A stretch of 27,986 nt of DNA from a virus, in IMG/VR virus record IMGVR_UViG_3300036770_001400, positions 1 to 27,986 of that record. The stretch is one strand, 5' to 3'. The notes beneath the pieces were generated by a model that worked only from the letters and a program-made list of their open reading frames with translations, had not been told where the DNA came from and searched no databases. The translations under genes and the position numbers were made by a program. The stretch's first letter is position 1. The number at the start of each line of letters is the position of its first letter. This document shows positions 2,288 to 22,261 of this stretch, in pieces.

Positions 2288-2731
2288 ATGTTAGCAGAAG
2301 CGTTAAAAACATTATTATCAACCAGTTATGCGTTTGTAATTAAAGCACAATATTTTCATTGGAACGTTGAGGGTCCAAATTTTCCACAATATCATGAGTT
2401 TTTTGGTAACATATATGAAGAAGTATATGATAATTCAATTGACCAAACAGCGGAATATATTAGAACACTAGATAGTTATACGCCTGGTAGTATGACACGT
2501 TTTGCCGAACTATCTATTATACAAGAACAAACAATGATTCCACGTGCTGAGTTAATGTTGCAAGAACTTGAACAAGATAATATGAAGGTAATAGAATTAC
2601 TAAATCATTGTTTCGAACATGCAGAAGCAGAAAACAAACAAGGCATCGCAGATTATATTGCTGGACGATTAGATGCACATGAGAAACATGGTTGGATGTT
2701 ACGTAGTACATTAAAGAAAACCCGCGCATGA
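2288..2731 (+). CDS. Dps-like ferritin-superfamily protein
   Basis: A 147-residue all-helical protein with the Dps signature at the first helix-loop: FHWNVEGPNF (H24) followed by H36, and D52-x3-E56 in the second helix, corresponding to the ferroxidase ligands H51, H63, D78 and E82 of E. coli Dps. The Asp that normally follows the second His by four residues (D67 in E. coli) appears to be Gly40 or Asn41, and there is one extra residue before D52, so iron binding may be altered. Dps proteins form 12-subunit shells that oxidise Fe(II) and protect DNA. The extended Lys-rich N-terminal tail used by E. coli Dps to bind DNA is missing. It overlaps the heme oxygenase gene by 4 nt, suggesting linked roles in iron handling. 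Family assignment is secure; the role in the phage is inferred. Confidence 0.82.
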   Translation: MLAEALKTLLSTSYAFVIKAQYFHWNVEGPNFPQYHEFFGNIYEEVYDNSIDQTAEYIRTLDSYTPGSMTRFAELSIIQEQTMIPRAELMLQELEQDNMKVIELLNHCFEHAEAENKQGIADYIAGRLDAHEKHGWMLRSTLKKTRA

Positions 2732-3264
2732 CAATATTAAGAGAAGCCACGCATGCAAAGCATCGTGAAGTAGAAGCATTGCCTATGATTCAATGTATAA
2801 TGAACGGGCCAACAGTAGAGCAGTATGTTCATTATCTATTTGAATTGCAAGAAATTTATAGAGTTATAGAGTTAGCGGCAAGAAGTGCAGATATACTTAA
2901 AGATTTATCTGGTATAGAACGTTATGAACGTATTACAGAAGATTTAAAAGAGTTAAATCCTAATTATACTAGAGAGTTAATGCCTAGCACTAAAAAGTAT
3001 ATTGACCATATATGGGCAACAGCCTATCATCATCCTAATCTAATATTAGCACATGTTTACGTCAGACATATGGGCGATTTATACGGTGGTAAGTTAATGG
3101 CTAGAGTTGTTCCTGGTACAGGAAGAGCGTATATGTTTGAAGATAGACCCGGAGTCATTAAAGCATTCAATGACAAATTAACAATGGATCTAGCAGATGA
3201 GGCTAATTTAGCATTTGACTATTTTATACAGATTTTTGATGAACTACATAAGAGTCAAAACTAA
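2728..3264 (+). CDS. ho1: Heme oxygenase (biliverdin-producing, HO-1 family)
   Basis: A 178-residue helical protein with the two hallmarks of the family. The N-terminal REATHAKHREVE segment places the proximal heme ligand at H12, and the distal-helix motif YVRHMGDLYGGKL (residues 111-123, GDLYGG for the usual GDLSGG) lies over the heme. The enzyme opens heme to biliverdin, CO and Fe(II) in the cytoplasm using reducing equivalents from the host. It is shorter than typical bacterial and cyanobacterial enzymes of about 200-240 residues. Heme oxygenase genes are known in cyanophages, where they feed bilin synthesis; no bilin reductase is seen here. The 4-nt overlap with the Dps-like gene points to iron release and storage as an alternative purpose. 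Confidence 0.88.
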   Translation: MTILREATHAKHREVEALPMIQCIMNGPTVEQYVHYLFELQEIYRVIELAARSADILKDLSGIERYERITEDLKELNPNYTRELMPSTKKYIDHIWATAYHHPNLILAHVYVRHMGDLYGGKLMARVVPGTGRAYMFEDRPGVIKAFNDKLTMDLADEANLAFDYFIQIFDELHKSQN

Positions 3265-4475: not shown

Positions 4476-4852
4476 AAATAAGTGAAATTTTATACGAAGC
4501 AAAAGTTGATCCAGACTTTGACGATGATGAGGCTCCAGCACCAGATGCGGATCAAGACAAGATACCAAACATATTCATGCAAATGCGTAAGGCTGTAGAT
4601 ACAGAAGGCAATTACGAATTTAAGTTTCTAGATGGTAGCAAGCAAAAACTTGAAATGAAAGATATTGTGACATTTGTTAAGAAGTATACAAATGCAAAAC
4701 CTCTTGAAAAAGAAATGATGCAGAATAAGGCTATACAAAGTCCTAGTGGATTTATGTCAGTTGTTTACGCTGAGGAACCAACTAAACCTGATTTTAAAAT
4801 TAAAGGTTCAAGATACATGAGCAGTTTTGCAGGAGATTATGATGACAAGTAA
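4472..4852 (+). CDS. Acidic hypothetical protein with capsid-targeting-like leader
   Basis: A 126-residue protein starting with ATGA overlapping the previous stop. The N-terminus MKISEILYEAK fits the capsid-targeting-like pattern, with L-Y-E followed by Ala as in the T4 internal proteins. Residues about 13-30 are strongly acidic (Asp-rich), followed by a mixed domain (about 31-126) containing YEFKFLDGSKQKLEMKDIV. I have a sense that this domain recurs in uncharacterised T4-like phages but cannot name it. The acidic part could mimic DNA or prohead scaffold; this is speculation. It overlaps the nuclease gene that follows by 11 nt. Confidence 0.72.
   Translation: MKISEILYEAKVDPDFDDDEAPAPDADQDKIPNIFMQMRKAVDTEGNYEFKFLDGSKQKLEMKDIVTFVKKYTNAKPLEKEMMQNKAIQSPSGFMSVVYAEEPTKPDFKIKGSRYMSSFAGDYDDK
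4831..4835 (+). promoter_or_regulatory. Ribosome binding site deciding the nuclease start
   Basis: AGGAG stands 6 nt before the ATG at 4842 but only 3 nt before the tandem ATG at 4839, and it lies inside the longer frame that would start with TTG at 4827. It therefore favours 4842, which also gives a clean signal peptide. Confidence 0.6.
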
Positions 4853-5294
4853 ATTATTAAAAGGTATATTAGCATTTGCCATAGCAGCACTATCTAGTAC
4901 AGCATTTGCTCAAAAAATACCTCAGTCTGTACAGTATGACGTTACAATACTACGTGTTACTGATGGTGATACCGTAGTGTTTAAGGCAAGTTTTTTACCA
5001 GCACCCTTAAAGCCTGAATTGGCATTGCGTGTGTTTGGCGTTGATACTCCTGAAAAAGGTTTCAGAGCAAAATGTGATAGTGAAGCACAACGTGGTGCGG
5101 CAGCATCAGCATTTACCAAACAACTTGTAATGAATTCAAAAGTTCATCAAGTGCAACTTATGAATTGGGATAAGTTTGGTGGTAGAGTATTAGGCGATTT
5201 GTTACTAGATGGTAAGAGCCTAAGACAAATGCTTATCGCTAATAATTATGCTAGAGAATATTACGGCGAGGCAAAACAAAGTTGGTGTAACTAA
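4842..5294 (+). CDS. Exported thermonuclease (staphylococcal nuclease family)
   Basis: A 150-residue protein with a Sec signal peptide (Lys at 4 and 7, hydrophobic 8-19, cleavage after AFA at about residue 23) and one SNase domain. Conserved residues are present: Asp41 and Asp43 in TDGDT, Arg63 and Glu71 in RVFGVDTPE, and Arg115 in GGRVLGDL, matching D21, R35, E43 and R87 of Staphylococcus aureus nuclease. It should cleave DNA or RNA with Ca2+ in the periplasm or outside the cell. Cys78 and Cys149 could form a disulfide. T4-like phages usually degrade host DNA with cytoplasmic nucleases, so an exported one is unusual; removing extracellular DNA or blocking a second phage are possible reasons. 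The next small gene overlaps its stop by 1 nt. Confidence 0.85.
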   Translation: MTSKLLKGILAFAIAALSSTAFAQKIPQSVQYDVTILRVTDGDTVVFKASFLPAPLKPELALRVFGVDTPEKGFRAKCDSEAQRGAAASAFTKQLVMNSKVHQVQLMNWDKFGGRVLGDLLLDGKSLRQMLIANNYAREYYGEAKQSWCN

Positions 5295-5573: not shown

Positions 5574-7013
5574 ATGATAAAAAAGATCCTTGCGTTGGCC
5601 GTGGCTACAGCCTATTTGGCTGTAGCACCGATCCATACATTTGCGCAAACTACTAATACAAGTACACAAAGTACTACTGGTGGCACAACTACCAGTACAA
5701 CCACTCCTATCAATCAAGGTGGTTATGATAGTAAAACATTAGTAGATACTAACAGTACTAGCAATAGCACAAGTACGGTAACTACTAACAATAACACTAC
5801 AACTAATAATACTAGCACAAGCACTAGTACAGTAAACAGTACCAATACTAACACAAACACTTCAACATCAACTAACGTTAATACAAATAATAATATTCAA
5901 AGTGGTACGGTTACTAACATAAATCAGAATACCAATAATGGTACAATGACATATAACAACAATAATGTTAACAGTGGTACGGTAACATATAATAACAATA
6001 ATAACAACGTTCAAAGTGGTACAGTAACATATAATAACAACAACGTGAATAGCGGAACTCAAACATTTAATAACAACAATAATACTACTAGTACCAATAC
6101 TAATAATAACGTAATGAGCGGGTCTGTTACCTATACAAACAACAACGTTAATAGTGGTACAATGACATACAATAATAACAATGTTTCAACTGCGACTAAC
6201 ATTAATAAAAATGAAAATACAGGAACAATGACATATAACAATAATAATGTGTCAACTTCTACAAATATAAACAAAAACGAAAATACCGGCACTATGACTT
6301 ACAATAACAACAATGTAAGCACTAGTACTGCTACAAATAATAATACAAATACTAACATTAATACCGGTGACATGACCAATCGTAATATTAATACTAGTAC
6401 CAGTGTGAGCACAAATAATAACAATAATATTACTACCAGTACTAACAATAATATCAACACTGGTGACATGACCAATCGTAATATTAATACTAGTACTTCA
6501 ACTTCAAACAACGTGAACACCAATAACAACTCCAGCACAAGTAATAATACTAATGTAAACATTCAGCAGGGTGAAATGACCAATCGTAATATTAACGAAA
6601 CCACTGTTACACAAAAAGTTATTCAACCCCCACCAACTGCTATTGCACCTGCAATGATGAGTGCAGGTACTGACCTTTGCGTTACTGGTATAAGTGGAGC
6701 AACTCAAACTCAAATATTTGGTATGAGTTTTGGTTCTACTATGCGTGATGATAATTGTGAAAGATTAAAGTTAAGCAAGACTATGTACGACATGGGAATG
6801 AAAGTTGCAGCCGTTGCATTGATGTGCCAAGATGAACGTGTATTTAAGGCTATGGAAATGGCAGGTACACCTTGCCCATATATGGGTAAAATAGGTGAGC
6901 AAGCATCACAAGCATGGACCGACAATAAAAAAGAACGTCCTGATTCAAAGAAAGGTTTCTTTGGTAAACTTAGTGCATTATTCAGTAGTGACGATGAGAC
7001 AAGAGTACAATGA
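5574..7013 (+). CDS. Exported Asn/Thr-rich repeat protein
   Basis: A 479-residue protein with a Sec signal peptide (Lys3-Lys4, hydrophobic core to about 19, cleavage after TFA near residue 24). Residues about 25-110 are Thr/Ser/Asn-rich. Residues about 108-340 hold 12 repeats of the form x-G-[TSDE]-[VMQ]-T-[YFN]-x-N, with the Gly at 111, 123, 135, 148, 160, 182, 194, 216, 238, 264, 296 and 332. After a Pro-rich linker (about 350-358) comes a C-terminal domain of about 120 residues with four Cys (CVTG, NCERL, MCQDE, PCPYMG), suggesting disulfides in the periplasm. It ends in a basic and then acidic tail. It is first in a late operon and overlaps the next gene by 4 nt. Surface adhesin or fibril former are guesses; no characterised family is recognised. 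Confidence 0.82.
   Translation: MIKKILALAVATAYLAVAPIHTFAQTTNTSTQSTTGGTTTSTTTPINQGGYDSKTLVDTNSTSNSTSTVTTNNNTTTNNTSTSTSTVNSTNTNTNTSTSTNVNTNNNIQSGTVTNINQNTNNGTMTYNNNNVNSGTVTYNNNNNNVQSGTVTYNNNNVNSGTQTFNNNNNTTSTNTNNNVMSGSVTYTNNNVNSGTMTYNNNNVSTATNINKNENTGTMTYNNNNVSTSTNINKNENTGTMTYNNNNVSTSTATNNNTNTNINTGDMTNRNINTSTSVSTNNNNNITTSTNNNINTGDMTNRNINTSTSTSNNVNTNNNSSTSNNTNVNIQQGEMTNRNINETTVTQKVIQPPPTAIAPAMMSAGTDLCVTGISGATQTQIFGMSFGSTMRDDNCERLKLSKTMYDMGMKVAAVALMCQDERVFKAMEMAGTPCPYMGKIGEQASQAWTDNKKERPDSKKGFFGKLSALFSSDDETRVQ
5895..6596 (+). repeat. Coding repeat array (12 degenerate Asn-rich units)
   Basis: The DNA shows recurring units built around agtggtac-[ga]-gtaacatataataac and later accggtgacatgaccaatcg-type units, spaced irregularly by 36-96 nt. 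The units keep the reading frame and differ mainly at synonymous and spacer positions. Three subfamilies are visible: SGTVTYNN, TGTMTYNN and TGDMTNRN, in that order, which suggests serial local duplication. Confidence 0.75.
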
Positions 7014-8911
7014 AATATCTTATCATATTATTGCTAAGTTTATATAGTGGGTTTGTTAGTGCGCAAAATGTAACCTCACTGGATCCTACGCAGGTGTATA
7101 ATACTAATAACATTGTTAACATTGGTACTACCCCTACCTCAACTACTAGTACATGGCAAAATTTAGGACTAGTGAATCAGGGGTTGCCATGTTGGGCACC
7201 TGAAGATGGATTTAAAGGTGCTTATTGCGGACCTCTTCCGTACTATAATCAAGGCTCATTTAATTTCAGTTATGGATTAACAGATGTTTATCAAATAGCA
7301 AACATAGCAGCCGCACTTCCAAATTTAGGTACAGGATTGCGTGTCAATGGCTACAACTATAGTTTTACGGCAAAGAACGGCAACGGTTGGGATAACGGAC
7401 AAATTGATTATCTATCAGCATATGTCAATTTTTATGGCAGCGATGGCAAATCTGTAAGATATGATTATTACGATTTAACTTATAAATTTGATTGGTCTAA
7501 TTTTAATTTTAGTAAGACATTTGATACACCCTATGCAAGTAAAGATTTAAGCACGGTTCAATATGGATTTGTAGGCGGTGATAGTAATGGTTGGGCCGGC
7601 CCATACGGACCCGAAATTATCAATGTTAGTTTTAGTTTGAAATATAGTGTTGATCCTTGCTATACAAATGTATTGTATAGCCCAACCTGCCCTGGATATT
7701 TAGAAGCACTTAATAAATTGACTGCTACGACACCTATAGAACCAACTGCAACTACTCAACCATCTATGAATGAACCAATATCTGTGTCATCAACTACAGA
7801 AACTAGCAAATCTACTGCGAGTACCAGTATAGTTCAAGTTCCAATATTAACAAATCAACAACCAAATATTGTTTCTAGTTCATCAGTTGAAACGAAAGTT
7901 ACTAGTTCAACAAACACAGGTCCTTCTTTATCCACTGTATTATCAATGATTAAATCTAATCAAGCAAAAGAACAGAGCATTGCTCAAAATGCTGTAAATC
8001 AAGCCAATCAAGTAGCACAAATGGCAATAACTGAGACAGAAAAAATTGCCTTATCAGTTGCTACAACTAGTTCTATACAAAGTACAGAGATTGCTAATGA
8101 ATCAATTTTTAAAATAGAAATTAAAAAAGATAATAAGATAACCACATCTAATAGCATTTTAGATTTATTTGCACTGCCTACAACAAACTCATTAAATGTT
8201 AATAATATTCTTATGCCACAAAATAAAGTTACACAGCAGACAACTTTACCAACTAATCAGTTAGGATTACCAATCAATCAGTCTATTATTGTAGTAGGTA
8301 AAGAAAATGTACCGTCATCATTGTACTCTTTGGTACCCATGCAATCTAACAATTTTTCAACTACACCATATGTTTCAATAAAACCTGAAGCAAACGTACA
8401 GTCTAATAGTCAACAACTTCAAGAAACAGCGTCAATGGTATCATTGAAACCACCGGTAGAATTATCATTAAGTATTCAAACTACTAATCAAGTAACACAA
8501 GAAATAATCACATCGCAGCAAACTAAACCAATGGTAAATTTATCATCTACCCAACATGTAGAAGTTTCTAATACATCAAATTCATTATTTGCAAAAAGAG
8601 GTGATCCATTATCAGACTATATTGAACAAAATAATATTTTAGTTGCAATGGTTCAACCTGAAATGAAAACTTCAACTGTAAAAACAAATGTACAAGATAA
8701 CGAATTAGCAGGTGGTGTAAGAATAGAAAGAATTGCAGTCAACCCTGCAGGATTCAATGTTTACACTACTACTGTGTTAAAAGATATAGCATTTTATGCA
8801 CCAAAAGAGATTTATAGAAACCAAAAAACAATTGACAATACTAGAGCATTACGTCAATTGAGTTCAGACAAGTTGCACCAAGAAATGGTAGAGCAACAAT
8901 ATAGGAGATAA
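7010..8911 (+). CDS. Large exported protein with N-terminal globular domain and Ser/Thr/Gln-rich tail
   Basis: A 633-residue protein with a signal peptide (hydrophobic 4-14, cleavage after VSA near residue 18). Residues about 20-235 look globular and beta-rich, with many aromatic and Gly residues and Cys at PCWAPEDGFKGAYC and DPCYTNVLYSPTC, pairs that could form disulfides. Residues about 236-540 are low complexity in Ser, Thr, Gln and Asn. The last 90 residues (from about GDPLSDYIEQNN) look folded again. It overlaps the repeat protein by 4 nt and is followed 2 nt later by a membrane coiled-coil protein, so the three are one operon under the 5528 late promoter. No enzyme motif is seen. Cell-surface or envelope action late in infection is inferred. 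Confidence 0.8.
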   Translation: MKYLIILLLSLYSGFVSAQNVTSLDPTQVYNTNNIVNIGTTPTSTTSTWQNLGLVNQGLPCWAPEDGFKGAYCGPLPYYNQGSFNFSYGLTDVYQIANIAAALPNLGTGLRVNGYNYSFTAKNGNGWDNGQIDYLSAYVNFYGSDGKSVRYDYYDLTYKFDWSNFNFSKTFDTPYASKDLSTVQYGFVGGDSNGWAGPYGPEIINVSFSLKYSVDPCYTNVLYSPTCPGYLEALNKLTATTPIEPTATTQPSMNEPISVSSTTETSKSTASTSIVQVPILTNQQPNIVSSSSVETKVTSSTNTGPSLSTVLSMIKSNQAKEQSIAQNAVNQANQVAQMAITETEKIALSVATTSSIQSTEIANESIFKIEIKKDNKITTSNSILDLFALPTTNSLNVNNILMPQNKVTQQTTLPTNQLGLPINQSIIVVGKENVPSSLYSLVPMQSNNFSTTPYVSIKPEANVQSNSQQLQETASMVSLKPPVELSLSIQTTNQVTQEIITSQQTKPMVNLSSTQHVEVSNTSNSLFAKRGDPLSDYIEQNNILVAMVQPEMKTSTVKTNVQDNELAGGVRIERIAVNPAGFNVYTTTVLKDIAFYAPKEIYRNQKTIDNTRALRQLSSDKLHQEMVEQQYRR

Positions 8912-8913
8912 AA

Positions 8914-9501
8914 ATGTCAGAAGAAAAAGTAGACTTAAACAAAAAAGTAGACGAACTAGAAGCGGCTGCTAAGAAGTATGCAAGCAAAGATACTGTCATT
9001 AGTATCGGTGGCTATGAATTTACACCTGCTAAACTTATGGTAGCGGCAACAATCGTTTCGAGTTTATTAGGTGGATTATACGGTGCTTTTGAAGTTTATA
9101 AAGACTACATGAGCATGAAAGATAAGATTGCCAAATATGTAAGTCCAGATTTGTCACAATTTGACAAACGTTTAGCGGTCATTGAAGAAACCAATCAAAA
9201 GACCGGTGATTATACACGTGATATTAAAAATGATTTAAAAAATGATATCCGCAGACTTGAAAGTGTTGTTGAAGGAGTAGAGCGTAGTGCAAAGCAAAGC
9301 CAACGTGAAACTGATGTAGCAATTAAGGATGCTCAGTCTGAGATGAGATCCGTTAGAAAAGATATGGATGCCAATATGAGAACTGTAGACAATTCTATAA
9401 AGGCAAACCAACGTGAATTGGATGCTCAATTAAAGGCAGTCAAAAAAGAAGTTGATGATAAGATTAAGAAAGCAATGGATAACCCATTAGCCAATAGATA
9501 A
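8914..9501 (+). CDS. Membrane-anchored coiled-coil protein
   Basis: A 195-residue protein without a cleavable signal. Residues 1-35 are charged, residues about 39-60 form one membrane segment (KLMVAATIVSSLLGGLYGAF), and residues about 70-190 are a long charged coiled coil rich in Asp, Lys and Glu. The layout would put a coil of roughly 120 residues on one side of the inner membrane. Spanin-like or envelope-linking roles could be imagined, but no lipobox or partner is seen. It is the last gene of the late operon and ends 1 nt before the convergent methyltransferase gene. Function unknown. Confidence 0.78.
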   Translation: MSEEKVDLNKKVDELEAAAKKYASKDTVISIGGYEFTPAKLMVAATIVSSLLGGLYGAFEVYKDYMSMKDKIAKYVSPDLSQFDKRLAVIEETNQKTGDYTRDIKNDLKNDIRRLESVVEGVERSAKQSQRETDVAIKDAQSEMRSVRKDMDANMRTVDNSIKANQRELDAQLKAVKKEVDDKIKKAMDNPLANR

Positions 9502-9502
9502 A

Positions 9503-10237
9503 TTATACTTTACTATAAACAAAGTATAGTCTATTGTTTGCATCTTTCTTAAATGTATCTAACGTTAGATTAAACTTCTTAGCAAATTCGTGTGCTATTT
9601 CAAAGGACCATGGGAACACATCAACCCATGGTCCCTTTTCATGTTGAATACCAGGATTGACTCTAAAGAACATTTTACCTTTAGGTGCTAACATTTTAAC
9701 ACAGTTAGCCAATCGTTGTTCAATATCCTCTTTACTATTAAAGTTAATAGAACCTAATGCCATGATAGCATCGAAACTTTCTTCTACGGCTGCATACTCA
9801 AGTATATCAACTTGATAATCAGCACAATTATTGTATGGATCAATTCCTATTAAATTAGGGATTCTGTCTTTAAACTGATTGTATCCACAACCCACATCAA
9901 GTACAGCCTTAGGGTTCATTTTGTTAATTTCTTCAACTAATTGCCAACCCGTATAACTATACTTTTCAGTACTGGGTTTCCATATTTCACCAAAGAATCT
10001 TCCTGAATATCTAATGTCAAAGTCATCTACTATGTCCTTAACAGTACCTTTAAACTCACTACTCAAGTCTAGCATAGATTCAATTTTCTGTTTAAATTTA
10101 TCAAATCTAGCAGGAGTCCATGGAAGTTGCTTTACTACAGTAAATTCGTTGATATCATTGTAAATTGTTTGGTACTTAGGCAATTTAAATGCATCAAGCA
10201 AATTTTCTATCATAAGTTTATAAATTTTAGTGTTCAT
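9503..10237 (-). CDS. Class I SAM-dependent methyltransferase
   Basis: A 244-residue protein with methyltransferase motif I VLDVGCG (112-118), the acidic residue ending strand 2 in GIDPY (D133), and a motif IV-like FDAIMALGSINF (155-166). The N-terminal 100 residues are helical and specific to this protein, perhaps for substrate recognition. The motif IV lacks the DPPY or NPPF of DNA amino-methyltransferases, so a small-molecule, sugar or protein substrate is more likely. It is one of only two minus-strand genes in the window, placed between two late operons, which suggests independent acquisition. Target unknown. Confidence 0.82.
   Translation of the reverse strand: MNTKIYKLMIENLLDAFKLPKYQTIYNDINEFTVVKQLPWTPARFDKFKQKIESMLDLSSEFKGTVKDIVDDFDIRYSGRFFGEIWKPSTEKYSYTGWQLVEEINKMNPKAVLDVGCGYNQFKDRIPNLIGIDPYNNCADYQVDILEYAAVEESFDAIMALGSINFNSKEDIEQRLANCVKMLAPKGKMFFRVNPGIQHEKGPWVDVFPWSFEIAHEFAKKFNLTLDTFKKDANNRLYFVYSKV
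9504..9528. terminator. Possible bidirectional terminator between convergent genes
   Basis: TATACTTT (9504-9511) and AAAGTATA (9521-9528) are perfect 8-bp arms around a 9-base loop, located exactly where the late operon and the minus-strand methyltransferase meet. The arms carry their own T and A runs, so the hairpin could act on both strands. It is AT-rich and lies within the 3' end of the methyltransferase, so the call is modest. Confidence 0.45.
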
Positions 10238-10277
10238 AATAATTTTCTCAAGATTTTAAAAATTTTTATCCATATGG

Positions 10278-10285
10278 GATAAATA
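10278..10285 (+). promoter_or_regulatory. Late-type promoter of the transporter operon
   Basis: GATAAATA differs from the T4 late element TATAAATA by one base. The start of transcription would be near 10291, 18 nt before the TctA ATG. The same octamer lies at exactly the same distance from the gene at 14736, which supports its being functional. Confidence 0.55.
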
Positions 10286-10308
10286 TCTACTCAATACTAT
10301 TACTTATC

Positions 10309-11760
10309 ATGGAATACATCGCTTCATTAATTTTAGGCACACTTTATGGGTTTTTGTTTGGTATTATACCCGTAGCAGGCGCCGGCGTAGGACTAATAAC
10401 AATATTTGGATTTTTGGATACATTTCGTACAGAACCATATGCGTTAGTAGTATTCACTACCTCATTAGTTGTAGCAGCCACAATAGGCGACAGTTTTGCT
10501 AGTGTGGTTATGAATATTCCCGGGGCTAGTGGCAGTGCCGCAACAATGGTAGACGGGTTCCCCATGACTAAGCGTGGTGAGGCTGCAAGAGCATTAGGAG
10601 CCGCATTAAGCACTAGCACAGTCAATGGTGTTATTTGGGGAATATTAGTGTTTTTATTTTTGCCCATGTATGCAGGATTAATCCTTAAATTTGGGATACC
10701 TGAAATTTTAGCATTTTTAGCATTGGCATTCGCTAGTGTTTGTTTTATTAATAATAAGTATTGGTTCAGAGGTATACTAGCATTAGCATTGGGTATATTT
10801 TTAGGGCTAGTAGGACAAAACCCAATCACAGGTGCAGAGCGTTGGACATTTGGTTGGGACTATCTAGGTGGTGGTATACAACTTGCTCCTTTACTTGCTG
10901 GCGTATTAGCCATACCTGAATTATTAGAAGCATATCAGAATAGACATACGCAAGAACGAGTACAGAATATTAAAACTGAATGGCAGCAAATATGGCAAGG
11001 TTTTGTTGACAGTTGGAAACACAGATGGGACGGGTTACGAGGTGGATTCATTGGTGCTATAGTAGGTGTCATACCGGGTATAGGTGGTAGTGTTGCTGAT
11101 TGGTTAGCATATGGACAAACAGTTGCACTTAATAAGAATGAAAAGATCGCATTTGGCGATGGTAATGTTAAGGGTGTTATAGGTTGCGAAGGTGCAAATA
11201 ATGCGCAAAAAGCGACAAGTTATGTACCAACTGTATTGTTTGGTATACCCGGTGCGCCTTTTGAGGCTATCATTATAGCATTGTTTTTACTAGTAGGTAT
11301 TGAACTTGGTTCTCCGTCGCTATTAAATGACTTATCGTTCTTTGATAATCTTGCTAGTAGTTACATGTACAGTCTATTATTAAGTTTTGTATTAGGATTA
11401 TTTTTTATACGTTATGCAGTACAGATAACTAACTTACCCTTCAGTTATTATTTTTGGCCTGTATTAGGATTACTAGTTTGGAGTAGTGTACAATATACGG
11501 GCTATTGGGAAGATTATGTTTTCTTTATTATGTGTTGTGTGTTTGGTCTTGCGTTACGTAAGTACAAGTTTAGCAGGGCAGCACTTGTTATAGGATATGT
11601 ATTAGCAGATAGACTAGAAGGTACTTTCTTGCAATACGAAAAGTTATATGATTTCATTGATATTTTTACAAGACCTATCAGTGGATCATTAATGGCTCTG
11701 ACGTTCGTAGCCATTATATACGGCGTATTTTTCAACAAAACGAGGATAAAATATGTTTAA
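10309..11760 (+). CDS. tctA: TctA-type permease of a tripartite tricarboxylate transporter
   Basis: A 483-residue polytopic inner-membrane protein with the two conserved halves of TctA. In the first half, a Gly-rich loop (GIIPVAGAGVG, about 18-28) is followed by MNIPGASGSAATMVDGFP (about 68-85). In the second half, GVIPGIGGSVADWLAYG (about 256-272) is followed by GCEGANNAQKATSYVP (about 288-303) and FGIPGAPFEAI. Around 10-12 membrane segments are apparent. TctA forms the channel of a secondary transporter that takes up citrate or other carboxylates delivered by a TctC binding protein. The small TctB subunit is not encoded nearby. The start has no Shine-Dalgarno sequence. It overlaps the next gene by 8 nt. 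A transporter core in a T4-like phage is very unusual; substrate unknown. Confidence 0.9.
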   Translation: MEYIASLILGTLYGFLFGIIPVAGAGVGLITIFGFLDTFRTEPYALVVFTTSLVVAATIGDSFASVVMNIPGASGSAATMVDGFPMTKRGEAARALGAALSTSTVNGVIWGILVFLFLPMYAGLILKFGIPEILAFLALAFASVCFINNKYWFRGILALALGIFLGLVGQNPITGAERWTFGWDYLGGGIQLAPLLAGVLAIPELLEAYQNRHTQERVQNIKTEWQQIWQGFVDSWKHRWDGLRGGFIGAIVGVIPGIGGSVADWLAYGQTVALNKNEKIAFGDGNVKGVIGCEGANNAQKATSYVPTVLFGIPGAPFEAIIIALFLLVGIELGSPSLLNDLSFFDNLASSYMYSLLLSFVLGLFFIRYAVQITNLPFSYYFWPVLGLLVWSSVQYTGYWEDYVFFIMCCVFGLALRKYKFSRAALVIGYVLADRLEGTFLQYEKLYDFIDIFTRPISGSLMALTFVAIIYGVFFNKTRIKYV

Positions 11761-12310
11761 GAAGATGATAGCAATTTTAGCAATTATGATTGCAGGTACA
11801 TCAGCATATGCTGAAGATAAGATTGAGTTAGGTTATCGATTTGACGACCAACGTAATACTACCAATGACCAATATGCTTTGACAGTAGATTGGCAGACTA
11901 AAATCAATAGTAATTTTAGTTGGGGTTTAGGATTTAGAAATACTGAGCGTGAACAAGATAGCCGGGTCACCAATCGTTATATGGTTAAATTAAACTATGA
12001 TTACAATATGCTTTATGTTAACACTGCTGTAGGACAAAAACATCAAAGTTTAAAACCTAGTACAGATTTTTGGCAAGCAGAAGCCGGAATCAAATATAAG
12101 GTAAGTGATAACGTTCAAGTTAAAGTAGGCTATGCATACCGTGAAGGGTTTGGTGGCAAAGATGTAGACTATCATGAGGGTCCTAGAGTTGCTGTCAAGT
12201 ACAAACTAGATCCACGTTGGGCAGTCAATGTCAAGTACGATTACTTTGATTTTGGTAATGGCGTAAAACGTGATCGTTATGGCATTTCAATCGAAAAGAG
12301 ATTATTCTAA
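11753..12310 (+). CDS. Small outer-membrane beta-barrel protein
   Basis: A 185-residue protein with a Sec signal peptide (Lys3-Lys4, cleavage after AYA near residue 20). The mature part alternates hydrophobic and polar residues in about eight predicted strands (for example YALTVDWQTKI, FSWGLGFRNTE, AVKYKLDP), and the protein ends in Phe (IEKRLF), the classical outer-membrane barrel insertion signal. GAGGA lies 6 nt before its ATG. It sits between a TctA permease and a TctC binding protein, so it may act as the pore or receptor that admits the same substrate through the outer membrane. It could instead be a surface-masking barrel that excludes other phages. Confidence 0.78.
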   Translation: MFKKMIAILAIMIAGTSAYAEDKIELGYRFDDQRNTTNDQYALTVDWQTKINSNFSWGLGFRNTEREQDSRVTNRYMVKLNYDYNMLYVNTAVGQKHQSLKPSTDFWQAEAGIKYKVSDNVQVKVGYAYREGFGGKDVDYHEGPRVAVKYKLDPRWAVNVKYDYFDFGNGVKRDRYGISIEKRLF

Positions 12311-12320
12311 GGAGAACTAA

Positions 12321-13376
12321 ATGAAGAAGTTACTAGCATTATTTGTAATGATGTTTGCCGCTTCTTCCGCTTTTGCGGACTATCGTTTGATAGTCCCGCA
12401 ATCAGTGGGAGGTGGAACTGATGTATGGGCAAGAATCGTAGCAAAAGAACTTGAAAAGAAGTTAGGTGAGAAGGTAGTTATCGAAAACATTCCTGGCATC
12501 AATGACATACCCGGGTTTAATAAGTTTCATAATGAATTACGCAAAGACCCCAAAACAATTATGGTTGCACATGGTGGCAACGCAGAGAGTTTCTTAATAC
12601 ATAAGGTAGATTATAATTATCGTGATTATGCTCCTGTTGGATTACAGAACTTAACGATTGTAGTTGGGCGCAGATCAGATAGTGATCCATTCAAAGAAGT
12701 AAGATTTAGCGCAGGGTCAGGTATGAATCCTGATCTTATGGCTATAACTATGCTTGTATGTGGACCATTAAAAACAGTAAAAGACTATCAAAACTGTTTT
12801 AATAGCAAAGTAATCTATGTTGCTGGTATGAAGGGCAATGAACGTAGACTTGCATATATGCGAGGAGAACTTAACGTTACCCGTGAAACAACTGCTGCCT
12901 ATTTTAAGCATCCTAAGCAATTAAAAGAAAACGTTGACTGGTTTGCACAAGGTGTATTAGATTTAAACACAGGGAGAATAGTTGCTGATGCAAACTTTTC
13001 CGGTGTACACTTTAACGAAGTTTACCGCAAAAAATGGGGAGTGGAACCTTCAGGTGAATTTTATGATGCATATCTACTAATAAAGAATTATAGAGATGTG
13101 TTGCAAAAATCACTGTGGGTAGATAAGAACAACCCTAATAGAGATAAACTTGTTAAGGCAATGCGTGATATGTCTAAAGATCCCGAAAGTATTGCTGCAA
13201 TCGAAAAAGATACAGGTAAGTACGAGTGGGTAATAGGTGATGATGTAAATAAGGCAATGAATGCATTAGAAAAAATGACTACAAAGAAAGCACTTAAAGA
13301 TTTAGTTTGGTGGACCAGTGTAGTTGTTAAGCAAGATGCATATTACAAAGAAGAAATTGCAATAAAGGCTAAATGA
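12321..13376 (+). CDS. tctC: Periplasmic BUG/TctC-family substrate-binding protein
   Basis: A 351-residue protein with a Sec signal peptide (cleavage after AFA near residue 19). The mature N-terminus RLIVPQSVGGGTDVWARIV (22-40) is the classic first ligand loop of BUG proteins, and VVIENIPG (52-59) follows, although the usual PGAGG is replaced by PGINDIPG. A second ligand loop is probably FSAGSGMNPDL (about 129-139), and two Cys about 13 residues apart may form a disulfide. BUG proteins bind carboxylates such as citrate or glutamate and pass them to TctA. A strong TAAGGAG precedes the start. It overlaps the next gene by 4 nt. Family call is strong; ligand unknown. Confidence 0.88.
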   Translation: MKKLLALFVMMFAASSAFADYRLIVPQSVGGGTDVWARIVAKELEKKLGEKVVIENIPGINDIPGFNKFHNELRKDPKTIMVAHGGNAESFLIHKVDYNYRDYAPVGLQNLTIVVGRRSDSDPFKEVRFSAGSGMNPDLMAITMLVCGPLKTVKDYQNCFNSKVIYVAGMKGNERRLAYMRGELNVTRETTAAYFKHPKQLKENVDWFAQGVLDLNTGRIVADANFSGVHFNEVYRKKWGVEPSGEFYDAYLLIKNYRDVLQKSLWVDKNNPNRDKLVKAMRDMSKDPESIAAIEKDTGKYEWVIGDDVNKAMNALEKMTTKKALKDLVWWTSVVVKQDAYYKEEIAIKAK

Positions 13377-14044
13377 TGAAATATATTTTCGTAGCAGGCG
13401 CTCCTGGCTCTAAGTGGAGTAGCGTAGTAAAAAACATTTATTATAGTCCAAGTATTGACAGGAGTGATTACAGCGACGAAAGAACATACCACCATGATGC
13501 AGACGGAGGAGTAATGCACCTTATGCATCTTGGTGCGTATTTTGATCCTGGTATGGAGTTCGAACTTCCAGAAAGTATGTCAACATTAACTAAGAAACAG
13601 GCAGAAGAGTTATTTGACAAACCTTTCAGTGGTACAGGTGTTAGAATCATTAAAAGTCATATCTTTAGTTATTATGAAAACATACTGTATCTTAAAGAAT
13701 TATGGCCAGAATGCCCTATTATATTAGTACATCGTAGCAATGATAGTTGTTTAGGATGGTGGGTACGCTGTGGTCATTTTAATATCACTTACCCAAAATA
13801 TGATAAATATTATGTGGATCTAAGAACTATGTCTAAAATTATTGACCGTCAAAATGAAGGTATATTGCAGGCATGGAACGCTAAGATAGGAACTCTACCA
13901 TCATTTGATAATACTTTCACTATGAAGGGCGGGTTGATTACGTTTAATAATATAGAGACTGCTGGATTCTGTAGGATACAACCTCCTCCAGAGCAGTACA
14001 AACAAGACTATACTATTAAAGATATTAATGTAAAGGTGATATAA
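13373..14044 (+). CDS. Sulfotransferase-like P-loop protein
   Basis: A 223-residue cytoplasmic protein. The N-terminus YIFVAGAPGSKWSSVV (4-19) resembles the phosphosulfate-binding loop of sulfotransferases, and RIIKSH followed by CPIILVHRSNDSCLGWW resembles the second (3'-phosphate) binding region. The same arrangement could also mean a P-loop kinase, since G9-x2-G12-x-K14-x-S16 is near a Walker A motif. Two ATG codons stand in tandem (13373 and 13376); either may be used. It overlaps TctC by 4 nt and the following oxygenase-like gene by 1 nt, so it belongs to the transporter operon. The substrate cannot be deduced. Confidence 0.62.
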   Translation: MMKYIFVAGAPGSKWSSVVKNIYYSPSIDRSDYSDERTYHHDADGGVMHLMHLGAYFDPGMEFELPESMSTLTKKQAEELFDKPFSGTGVRIIKSHIFSYYENILYLKELWPECPIILVHRSNDSCLGWWVRCGHFNITYPKYDKYYVDLRTMSKIIDRQNEGILQAWNAKIGTLPSFDNTFTMKGGLITFNNIETAGFCRIQPPPEQYKQDYTIKDINVKVI

Positions 14045-14709
14045 TGAAAAGTAGTTGGGATTCGACTAAACCAAGAAGTAAGTATCATTTTCGTAATGAT
14101 TACTTTGACCCTGAGTTTGATAAGGTTATCAAACTAGGAAAATTCAAACTTGACGTAACTAAAGAAGTTGAAGAACTTGTAGCAAAATCTAAGCCTGCTA
14201 CATGGAGAACTAGGGGTGCTGTCGGTAAATCTAGACCAGAAGAAGAACTAGCGTCAGAAGATTATGATTTAGAACGTTTTGGATATGGGAAAGATTATCA
14301 AATTACTCATCTTAATTGGGATATACCTGAAGTACTTCAGAAAGTCAGCAAATTATTTGCACTAGATGACTGTATGAATCGTATTCATGTTCAGAAACCC
14401 GGTGAAGTTTGGAATTTGCATTTGGACAAATTAGAAAAATGGAATCCCGAAAATCCTGACAGTATCATTAGGATTCAGGTAGCATTGACTGATTGGCAAC
14501 CAGGGCAGTTTTGGAGTTATGGAAACTATCAGCATAGCATGTGGAAAGTAGGGGAAGTAACTTCATTTGATTGGCAAAACTTGCCACACAGTACTGCAAA
14601 TGCTAGTCATTACCCTAGAGTTACCTTTCAAATTACAGGGGTAAAAACATCTCAAACTGAGTTATTCTTGGCTGAACTAGCGTCTATTAATGAATACGAA
14701 ATTAGATAA
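14044..14709 (+). CDS. 2-oxoglutarate/Fe(II) oxygenase-like protein
   Basis: A 221-residue protein with an apparent double-stranded beta-helix iron site: H126-L-D128 in WNLHLDKLE, H182 in LPHSTANASHY, and Arg192 (PRVTFQITG) as the probable 2-oxoglutarate ligand. The surroundings (IHVQKPGEVWNLHLD, then RIQVALTDWQPGQFW) are reminiscent of aspartyl/asparaginyl beta-hydroxylase-type enzymes. Several 2OG-Fe(II) oxygenases of unknown role are known from T4-like cyanophages. It uses the TAATG overlap with the sulfotransferase-like gene and ends the transporter operon. A late-type promoter overlaps its stop codon. Confidence 0.7.
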   Translation: MKSSWDSTKPRSKYHFRNDYFDPEFDKVIKLGKFKLDVTKEVEELVAKSKPATWRTRGAVGKSRPEEELASEDYDLERFGYGKDYQITHLNWDIPEVLQKVSKLFALDDCMNRIHVQKPGEVWNLHLDKLEKWNPENPDSIIRIQVALTDWQPGQFWSYGNYQHSMWKVGEVTSFDWQNLPHSTANASHYPRVTFQITGVKTSQTELFLAELASINEYEIR

Positions 14710-14712
14710 ATA
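14705..14712 (+). promoter_or_regulatory. Late-type promoter before the small gene and zincin
   Basis: GATAAATA overlaps the end of the oxygenase gene. The expected transcript start is near 14718, giving an 18-nt leader that carries AAAGGGG about 7 nt before the ATG at 14736. The octamer and distance are identical to those before TctA. Confidence 0.55.
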
Positions 14713-15692: not shown

Positions 15693-16286
15693 ATGTTTAG
15701 ATTACTGTTTCCTTTGCCTAAAGAAATTACCATTGCTCTTAGCGGTGGTGTAGATAGCGTTGCTATTACTGATTTCTTATCCAAAAAACATAAGGTCACA
15801 TGTGCCTTTTTTCATCATGGAACGGAAAACAGTGAACGTGCATTTGAGTTTGTATCCAAATTCTGCACAAATAGAAATCTTCCCCTTTTTGTAGGTATGC
15901 TTACTGCCCAAAAGCCTGTTGACCTAAGTCCAGAAGAGTTTTGGCGCAACGAAAGATATAAATTTTTAGAACCATTAGGTACAGTTGTAACTGGTCATCA
16001 TTTAGATGATGTAGTTGAAACTTACTTATGGGCGTGTATGCATGGTACACCCAAACTTATCCCACGATTACGCAATAACGTTTTACGACCATTTTTAACA
16101 ACGAGGAAGTCCGAATTCGTTGACTGGTGTACACGTAAGGGTGTATCATGGTGTGAAGATACTAGTAATACAGATACTAAGTATACACGTAATATGATTC
16201 GACATAATCTTTTACCCGCCGCTTTGCAAGTCAATCCTGGTTTGCATACAATGGTAAAAAAATTAGTTGAAAAGGCTCAGCAATAA
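15693..16286 (+). CDS. tilS: Compact tRNA(Ile)-lysidine synthetase
   Basis: A 197-residue enzyme of the PP-loop ATPase family. It has SGGVDS (17-22), GHHLDDVVET (101-110, matching the AHHxDDQxET of TilS), VLRPFLTTRKSEF (130-142) and EDTSNTDTKYTRNMIRHNLLP (from 155), the TilS-specific signature. TilS changes C34 of the CAU anticodon of a minor tRNA-Ile to lysidine so that it reads AUA. The C-terminal domains of E. coli TilS (about 430 residues) are absent, leaving the catalytic core. This AT-rich phage uses ATA visibly often, so boosting AUA decoding is a sensible purpose. No phage tRNA gene is seen in this window. Confidence 0.9.
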   Translation: MFRLLFPLPKEITIALSGGVDSVAITDFLSKKHKVTCAFFHHGTENSERAFEFVSKFCTNRNLPLFVGMLTAQKPVDLSPEEFWRNERYKFLEPLGTVVTGHHLDDVVETYLWACMHGTPKLIPRLRNNVLRPFLTTRKSEFVDWCTRKGVSWCEDTSNTDTKYTRNMIRHNLLPAALQVNPGLHTMVKKLVEKAQQ

Positions 16287-20740: not shown

Positions 20741-22261
20741 ATGACAGATAAAGAAAATTTAACAAATAATCACAATCCTGATTGGGCACTGTTTTTACCG
20801 GCAGTAAGTAGTTTCTTTATTACTGGATTGGGTAAACAACGTGAAGGGGATAATTATTTTGATGCCGCACGTATCCCTGCAGGCTTTAACGGCGATGTCG
20901 AATGTCTTAACTTTTTGAATAGTAAACAGGGCCTATTCAAATACAAATGGGGATTATATAGTGCTGGTCATGCCAATCTTGATACTACTATTGATGATCA
21001 CGCTGAAAGTATTATAAGAAAGCGTGAACAGGGAACGTTTATGCTAGGTGACAGCGGTGGATTTCAGATCATGAAAGGTCAATGGCCCGCAGACTGGAAA
21101 GATCCTAACTGTCCTAAAGCAATGAAACAACGTAAATTAGTTTTGAAGTGGATGGATGAGTACATGGATTATGGCATGGGCTTGGACGTTCCTTCTCAAA
21201 CAGTGCGTAATCAACATCTATATGACAAGCATGGCATTAAGACGATTGATGACGCACGTAATGCTACTCATATTAATAATGAGTATTTTATTAGAAACCG
21301 TGACGGACGCTGTAAATTCTTAAACGTATTACAGGGCTTGAATCACACTCAAAGCGACAACTGGTACGCCGAAATGAAAAAGTACTGTGATCCTAAAGTG
21401 TATCCAGACAATCATTTCAACGGTTGGGCATTTGGTGGTCAAAATAAAATTGACATTCACTTAATGCTACGCAGACTAGTTAACATCATTCATGATGGGT
21501 TGCTTGAGCCTGGCAAACATGATCTAATACATTGTCTAGGAACGTCGATTCTTGAATATGCAGTATTGTTTACTGATATTCAACGTGCAGTACGCAAGTA
21601 TCATAACCCTAACTTGCAAATTACTTTTGACTGCGCAAGCCCTTTCTTCTCTGCTGCCAAAGGTCTAGCATATTATAACACTTCAATCGAACATGATAGG
21701 AAGTGGACATATAGTATGGAAAAGACTGCTGAAAAGAAAAGTTATCATAATGACAATCGTAAGTTTAGCGACGGTTGTTTACAAGATAACATTCATGAAT
21801 TGTTCGCAGATAGTCCTATAACGGATCGTATGTTGATGCGTGACTTGTGTTATCGTGGCCCGGGATTCTTAGGTGCTCATGGTAAAGAAACTAAAACTAG
21901 TTGGGATACATTAAGTTATACATTATTACAAGCACATAATGTCTATCAACATATATGGTCAGTACAAGAGGCTAACCGTAGATATGAACAAGGTATTAAA
22001 CCTGCAATGATATTGCATAAGTTTGATGATATTAGTTTTGGTGACATTGTAGACGAGATTTTTAGTCTAAAGAATAGAGAAAAGAGTTTAAAACTTATTG
22101 ATGATTATAGTAACTTTTGGACTCAAATGAAGGCTGGACAAGGGTACAGTGGCAAAAAATCAGTTAACGCATTAACAATGTTTGATCATTTTTTTGGAGA
22201 TTCTGAAACAGAGGAAGAAGAGGAAGACCTAGATCAAGAGGTTGAAGTTAACTTAGATTAA
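20741..22261 (+). CDS. TGT/DpdA-like base-exchange enzyme (candidate DNA 7-deazaguanine transglycosylase)
   Basis: A 506-residue protein related to tRNA-guanine transglycosylases. It has DSGGFQ (104-109, general acid/base Asp104), FLNVLQGLNH (193-202), a GWAFGGQ loop (228-234, like the GxxxGG of TGT) and FDCASPFFSAAKG (296-308), with Asp297 at the place of the covalent nucleophile in the TGT motif FDCVLPTRNARNG. The TGT zinc motif CxCxxC is not seen. The C-terminus is very acidic (from about 489). TGT relatives in phages (DpdA family) insert 7-deazaguanines into DNA to evade restriction. The position next to gp43 and gp45 and the divergence from tRNA enzymes favour DNA as substrate. Superfamily call is good; substrate is inferred. 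Confidence 0.72.
   Translation: MTDKENLTNNHNPDWALFLPAVSSFFITGLGKQREGDNYFDAARIPAGFNGDVECLNFLNSKQGLFKYKWGLYSAGHANLDTTIDDHAESIIRKREQGTFMLGDSGGFQIMKGQWPADWKDPNCPKAMKQRKLVLKWMDEYMDYGMGLDVPSQTVRNQHLYDKHGIKTIDDARNATHINNEYFIRNRDGRCKFLNVLQGLNHTQSDNWYAEMKKYCDPKVYPDNHFNGWAFGGQNKIDIHLMLRRLVNIIHDGLLEPGKHDLIHCLGTSILEYAVLFTDIQRAVRKYHNPNLQITFDCASPFFSAAKGLAYYNTSIEHDRKWTYSMEKTAEKKSYHNDNRKFSDGCLQDNIHELFADSPITDRMLMRDLCYRGPGFLGAHGKETKTSWDTLSYTLLQAHNVYQHIWSVQEANRRYEQGIKPAMILHKFDDISFGDIVDEIFSLKNREKSLKLIDDYSNFWTQMKAGQGYSGKKSVNALTMFDHFFGDSETEEEEEDLDQEVEVNLD

Follow-up and report, generated by a model that had tools for sequence, protein, structure and literature searches.

The window analysed here, a linear IMG/VR record of 27,986 bases, encodes a T4-type DNA polymerase (gp43), whose nearest isolate matches are jumbo-phage DNA polymerases at 46-49% identity; Sinorhizobium phage Phosso and Agrobacterium phage Atu_ph07 are among the jumbo phages nearest by this protein. 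No tRNA genes were found in the window. Sequence analysis of the region around 10309-14709 revealed the following features:

9503-10237, minus strand: divergent methyltransferase gene (Methyltransf_11/25), a recurrent neighbour, probably on a separate transcript
10279-10285, plus strand: ATAAATA, candidate T4-type late promoter core, 30 nt before TctA (sequence)
10309-11760, plus strand: TctA permease, 483 aa (PF01970, viral alignment, tree, dN/dS)
11753-12310, plus strand: small outer-membrane beta-barrel, 185 aa, with signal peptide and C-terminal Phe, lineage-specific (Pfam, AlphaFold, Foldseek, dN/dS)
12321-13376, plus strand: TctC/BUG-fold periplasmic solute-binding protein, 351 aa, with Sec signal peptide (fold, PDB profile, 40-member viral alignment)
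13373-14044, plus strand: P-loop protein, weakly sulfotransferase-like (weak Sulfotransfer_3 match, E 0.07; invariant GxPGSxWS)
14044-14709, plus strand: putative 2OG-Fe(II) oxygenase, closing the operon (invariant residues, cyanophage match)
14706-14712, plus strand: next intergenic ATAAATA, past the last operon gene, which may start the next transcription unit (sequence)

TctA, the barrel, TctC, the P-loop protein and the 2OG-Fe(II)-oxygenase-like protein form a five-gene unit at 10309-14709. The TctA and barrel genes overlap by 8 nt and the barrel and TctC genes are 10 nt apart, while overlaps of 4 nt and 1 nt join TctC to the P-loop gene and the P-loop gene to that of the putative oxygenase. 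The initial annotation had described the first three genes as an uptake module spanning the envelope, encoded in a late operon. All three genes lie where it placed them, and a late operon is suggested by the overlapping or abutting genes and by the bracketing late-promoter-like ATAAATA copies at 10279 and 14706. Five of the six plus-strand copies of ATAAATA in the window lie 12-89 nt ahead of a gene start, and an extra copy at 13803, inside the P-loop ORF (13373-14044), is not near one. Upstream of viral TctA genes the motif was found in 20 of 94 cases, compared with 2.7% of random stretches, with related loci counted apart; this shorter motif was chosen after the exact TATAAATA motif had been tested and found not to be enriched. 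Its presence ahead of only 20 of the 94 genes would count against the reading of late expression.

On an independent contig (L002) the same order, from the methyltransferase through TctA, barrel, TctC and P-loop protein to the dioxygenase and on to gp43 and gp45, was found at 85-96% protein identity, and it is repeated at lower identity in three further loci (L008, L010 and L012). Comparison with L002 gave dN/dS values of 0.032-0.075 for the five operon genes (TctA 0.049, barrel 0.047) and 0.066 for gp43; the values are approximate, synonymous sites being near saturation. They point to purifying selection on all five genes, as on gp43.

The TctA gene proposed at 10309-11760 is genuine, its product matching PF01970 over the full profile length (311 bits, E 1e-92). 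It contains no TctB domain, and viral TctA ends near residue 483. Its second conserved motif has the canonical form, GVIPGIGG; the first reads P-x-A-G in the aligned viral proteins instead of the usual P-G-x-G, a change that counts against a transporter reading. A PDB profile search found no convincing chain match for TctA, and neither PHROGs nor NCBIfam was informative for TctA, TctC or ORF 14044. Searched with TctA, the isolate phage collection returned only matches of 23-31%, in bacterial-looking or unannotated-fragment records.

By sequence, the evidence for TctC at 12321-13376 is weak, because its PF03401 score of 15.5 bits falls below the cut-off of 27; even a weak match of this type was obtained for just four of 40 viral relatives. 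The assignment comes from profile and fold. A PDB search with a profile of the 40 relatives returned BugD first, then Bug27, TctC and other BUG/TctC chains. The AlphaFold model (pLDDT 93.2) had BUG/TctC proteins as all of its top 17 Foldseek matches, at 12-17% identity, including BugD, MatC, TphC, a terephthalate binder, Bug27 and Rpa4515, and in the first 11 places of VIA-align, where they scored Z 17.9-22.5 and the next family 14.2. A false family call, on which Pfam alone is inconclusive, was ruled out by these fold comparisons, and the binder named in the initial annotation is retained. Signal peptides occur throughout the viral TctC family.

Structure prediction for 11753-12310 gave the proposed barrel, in a ten-strand AlphaFold model (pLDDT 84.8). 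Its outer-membrane character is seen in the signal peptide, the antiparallel barrel of the model and the terminal aromatic residue, and the Pfam families Porin_4 and OMP_b-brl both match above their cut-offs, at 39 bits each. Foldseek matched the model to general barrels including KdgM, NanC and OmpG; KdgM and NanC were matched at TM 0.46-0.51, among many other barrels, and porins of the KdgM/NanC type, which are specific for oligosaccharides or acids, have twelve strands, the phage model ten. Neither the barrel nor TctC had a match in the isolate phages searched. About 95 distinct TctA loci yielded five distinct versions of the barrel. In four the gene sits immediately between TctA and TctC, and in the fifth it is one gene upstream of TctA; most relatives of the locus do not have it. 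A search for further barrels beside TctA yielded one candidate, an unrelated barrel-like ORF 5' of TctA in L041 and L044, with a weak DUF2490 match only. Because only these five versions and the unrelated one are seen, the barrel is an add-on and not the core of the TctA-TctC system. The earlier idea of a phage-supplied route through both membranes would therefore apply only to a sub-lineage, that of this virus, in which a barrel lies between TctA and TctC.

The last two genes of the operon are frequent companions of the pair. In ORF 14044-14709, H126-x-D128, H182 and R192 are invariant, as in an HxD...H triad with a 2OG-binding Arg, and the ORF matches an annotated 2OG-Fe(II) oxygenase of Synechococcus phage S-SCSM2R (29%, E 1e-5); searches of Pfam, PHROGs and the PDB by profile gave nothing significant. 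As raw counts, this putative oxygenase gene neighbours TctA in 37 of the 57 loci that have flanks, and in 23 of 95 loci it is no more than 60 nt from TctA or TctC. The P-loop gene is near TctA in 32 of the 57 flanked loci, and methyltransferase relatives were found in 59 of 79 TctC loci, overlapping loci included. Just upstream of TctA in several lineages there is a recurrent pair of genes for an AurF/ribonucleotide-reductase-like diiron protein and a Peptidase_C26/GATase protein (for example L003 8750-9448 and L005 7289-7834).

By profile scan, 485 IMG/VR contigs, not all of them independent, carry relatives of TctA, and the best 80 were kept; TctC relatives were found on 74 viral contigs. 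A TctC-like gene lies close to 92 of the 95 distinct full-length TctA genes inspected, usually overlapping or abutting (76 directly downstream within 60 nt, 14 further downstream and 2 upstream), and the other three loci are cut near a contig end. All 92 testable loci are therefore linked, so the pairing is not due to chance. The TctA-TctC pair is a widespread virus-specific system, and no isolate phage in the collection searched carries it. T4-type gp23 is present in 12 of 21 viral records, and many of the large records carry T4-type capsid genes. In three loci (L121, L139 and L024) binders or pairs are duplicated, which supports a transport reading, as duplications are expected of working transporters. 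A second, distant TctA was seen elsewhere on the contig in the records of L063, L133 and L144.

TctA was found in 22 of 24 viral records and TctB (PF07331), separate or fused, in none of the 24, the same model detecting TctB in three control genomes; its absence had been remarked on at the outset. TctB is poorly conserved and of unknown function (PMC5812351), and because of this poor conservation a diverged viral TctB could have escaped the search. A hydropathy scan for small membrane ORFs near TctA that might replace TctB found none at a strict threshold; small hydrophobic proteins do occur near TctA, for example in a cluster after TctC in L003-L005.

To look for cellular relatives, 84,980 bacterial and archaeal genomes were scanned with two viral peptide patterns, which would miss diverged members, and the viral family was found in two MAGs, in cellular-looking neighbourhoods (TctA-TctC pairs at L079 6536-10376 and L080 3168-5675). 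In L079 the P-loop and methyltransferase families of the phage locus adjoin the pair. When 398 genomes from the phylum of one MAG and 369 from its class were searched by profile, a distant sister group was all that appeared, with no further close member. A TctA tree was built from 28 viral rows, the two MAG copies, a PrpF-linked clade and 26 ordinary cellular TctA, by a quick method with SH-aLRT support only. This phylogeny, a check proposed in the initial annotation, placed a deep and diverse viral clade (support 100, long branch) as sister to long, PrpF-linked cellular TctA, and the two together split from the 26 ordinary TctA at support 97. One MAG copy falls among the viral rows and the other, tentatively, at the base of the clade.

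The cellular sister systems (L201-L209) resemble the viral ones in their sister-clade TctA and in a TctC-like binder that is 26-30% identical to the viral protein over its whole length and, in the two tested, likewise unseen by Pfam. They differ in a TctA of 649-678 aa, compared with 483 aa in the window, with a weak C-terminal TctB match in one of two proteins tested, and in having a LysR regulator and an adjoining PrpF-family enzyme. The latter is present in eight of the nine loci, and the four tested were all assigned by NCBIfam as 4-oxalomesaconate tautomerase; L205 also has TcuA and TcuB, and L209 has TcuB. These PrpF-family and TcuA/TcuB neighbours point to tricarboxylates as the substrate of the cellular clade. 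The viral substrate may differ, because viral TctC departs from the sister clade at several otherwise conserved positions: R188, E189, H70, N71, G86 and N87 are conserved in viral TctC and are different in the cellular clade.

To our knowledge, the auxiliary transport genes described in phages so far are mostly single parts. One such is the cyanophage PstS, a phage-encoded periplasmic binding protein of an unrelated family, which is a phosphate binder alone with no permease. Cellular TTT systems (TctABC) share with the phage system a TctA-family permease and a linked periplasmic receptor of BUG/TctC fold; the phage system differs in that no TctB was found, the TctC-like protein is below the Pfam cut-off, the order is TctA-(barrel)-TctC, and the genes are carried by a virus. 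Outer-membrane pores are paired with such uptake in cells as well, as is the OpdH porin with tricarboxylate uptake in Pseudomonas aeruginosa. A KdgM-type porin occurs with a TTT in Vibrio sp. C42 (PMC13390454); these cellular porin-TTT pairs, unlike the phage one, have a complete TctABC. In archaea, TctA lacks both TctB and TctC (PMC5812351). In viruses, the putative AMGs of unknown role reported for SUP05 viral contigs included a TctA domain and a 2OG-Fe(II) oxygenase (Roux 2014, PMC4164917). The two resemble the present locus in description, and the passage on those contigs mentions no TctC, pairing or barrel. This 2014 report and a review citing it were all that the open-access papers searched yielded, with no report of a phage TctA-TctC pair. 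The statement that no such phage system had been described is nearly right, the exception being that TctA domain; as a viral pair, TctA-TctC is apparently undescribed.

We consider it likely that the locus encodes a TctB-less TTT, that is, a two-component TctA-TctC importer used late in infection. In a diderm host, TctC would be exported to the periplasm, bind a small organic anion and hand it to TctA, which would import it by ion symport; in this sub-lineage the co-expressed small barrel may raise the passage of solutes across the outer membrane. Since the genes are probably late-expressed, import would support virion production or supply the 2OG-oxygenase-like and P-loop enzymes transcribed with the transporter, and T4-like viruses with the pair probably feed organic acids into infected cells. 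The gene identities, the predicted TctC and barrel folds, the near-universal linkage, the selection and the place of TctA in the tree were established directly and bear out the proposed phage-encoded pair; from them we infer uptake itself: that the proteins transport, late in infection and without requiring TctB, and that the substrate is a (tri)carboxylate. Citrate-, aconitate- or tricarballylate-like acids are a possible substrate, tentatively named by analogy and with the balance leaning away from them.

Among the alternatives, it is improbable that the TctC-like protein is the active part, whether as a partner of host TctAB, as a scavenger in the periplasm or as a sensor ligand there, with phage TctA dispensable. 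Two viral records, L045 (204,772 bases) and L053 (71,307 bases), do have TctC without TctA anywhere, and cells often have orphan BUG binders (PMC5812351); however, nearly all the other loci have a linked TctA, and it is under equal purifying selection. That a barrel and membrane proteins lie together in a single, probably late unit might instead speak for envelope remodelling, in which barrel and TctA-TctC change the cell surface or membrane so as to exclude other phages and not to feed the cell. We regard this as quite improbable, as the binder fold and permease motifs are conserved and the barrel is absent from most relatives.

Import of ferric citrate would fit an iron theme made up of the Dps-like and heme oxygenase genes at 2288-3264 and the putative 2OG-Fe(II) oxygenase within the operon, but the ferric-citrate uptake known so far runs through TonB receptors and ABC transporters, and Dps and heme oxygenase relatives were found in the window alone among the first-fetched loci, most of them short; iron acquisition is thus highly improbable. 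Host contamination or an assembly chimera, suggested by the otherwise cellular nature of TctA and TctC and their absence from the isolate phages searched, has next to no probability. The same gene order beside gp43 and gp45 on independent contigs, the large number of viral records, in which gp23 is often present when they are large, and the deep, diverse viral TctA clade refute it for the module as a whole, and L002 repeats the order across 10238-14709, where a chimera had been considered.

If a two-component importer is accepted, the presence of this conserved, virus-specific pair of binder and permease on hundreds of environmental contigs would mean that many T4-like viruses rewire host nutrient uptake. 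The viral pair would be a natural test of a TTT working without TctB, with a binder mostly missed by Pfam. A fuller version, in which a virus-specific two-component TTT family imports polycarboxylates late for the 2OG-oxygenase-like and P-loop enzymes, through a phage-made pore in some lineages, appears rather unlikely; if true, it would be a full virus-encoded trans-envelope nutrient pathway.

Several other genes were observed. In L045 and L053 the lone TctC-like binder (9998-11050 in each) lies beside diiron-like and glutamine-amidotransferase-like proteins. In the window, the Dps-like and heme oxygenase genes overlap by 4 nt, and an ORF at 20741-22261, with no Pfam match at E 0.001, has a GDSGGFQ motif as in tRNA-guanine transglycosylases. 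At 15693-16286 there is a short TilS-like tRNA lysidine synthetase consisting of the N-terminal domain only. An SNase gene at 4827-5294 has a signal peptide, and therefore the phage probably exports several proteins. It is followed at 5574-9501 by two more signal-peptide genes, one very rich in Asn/Thr repeats, and then a coiled-coil protein, with partial relatives in L026.
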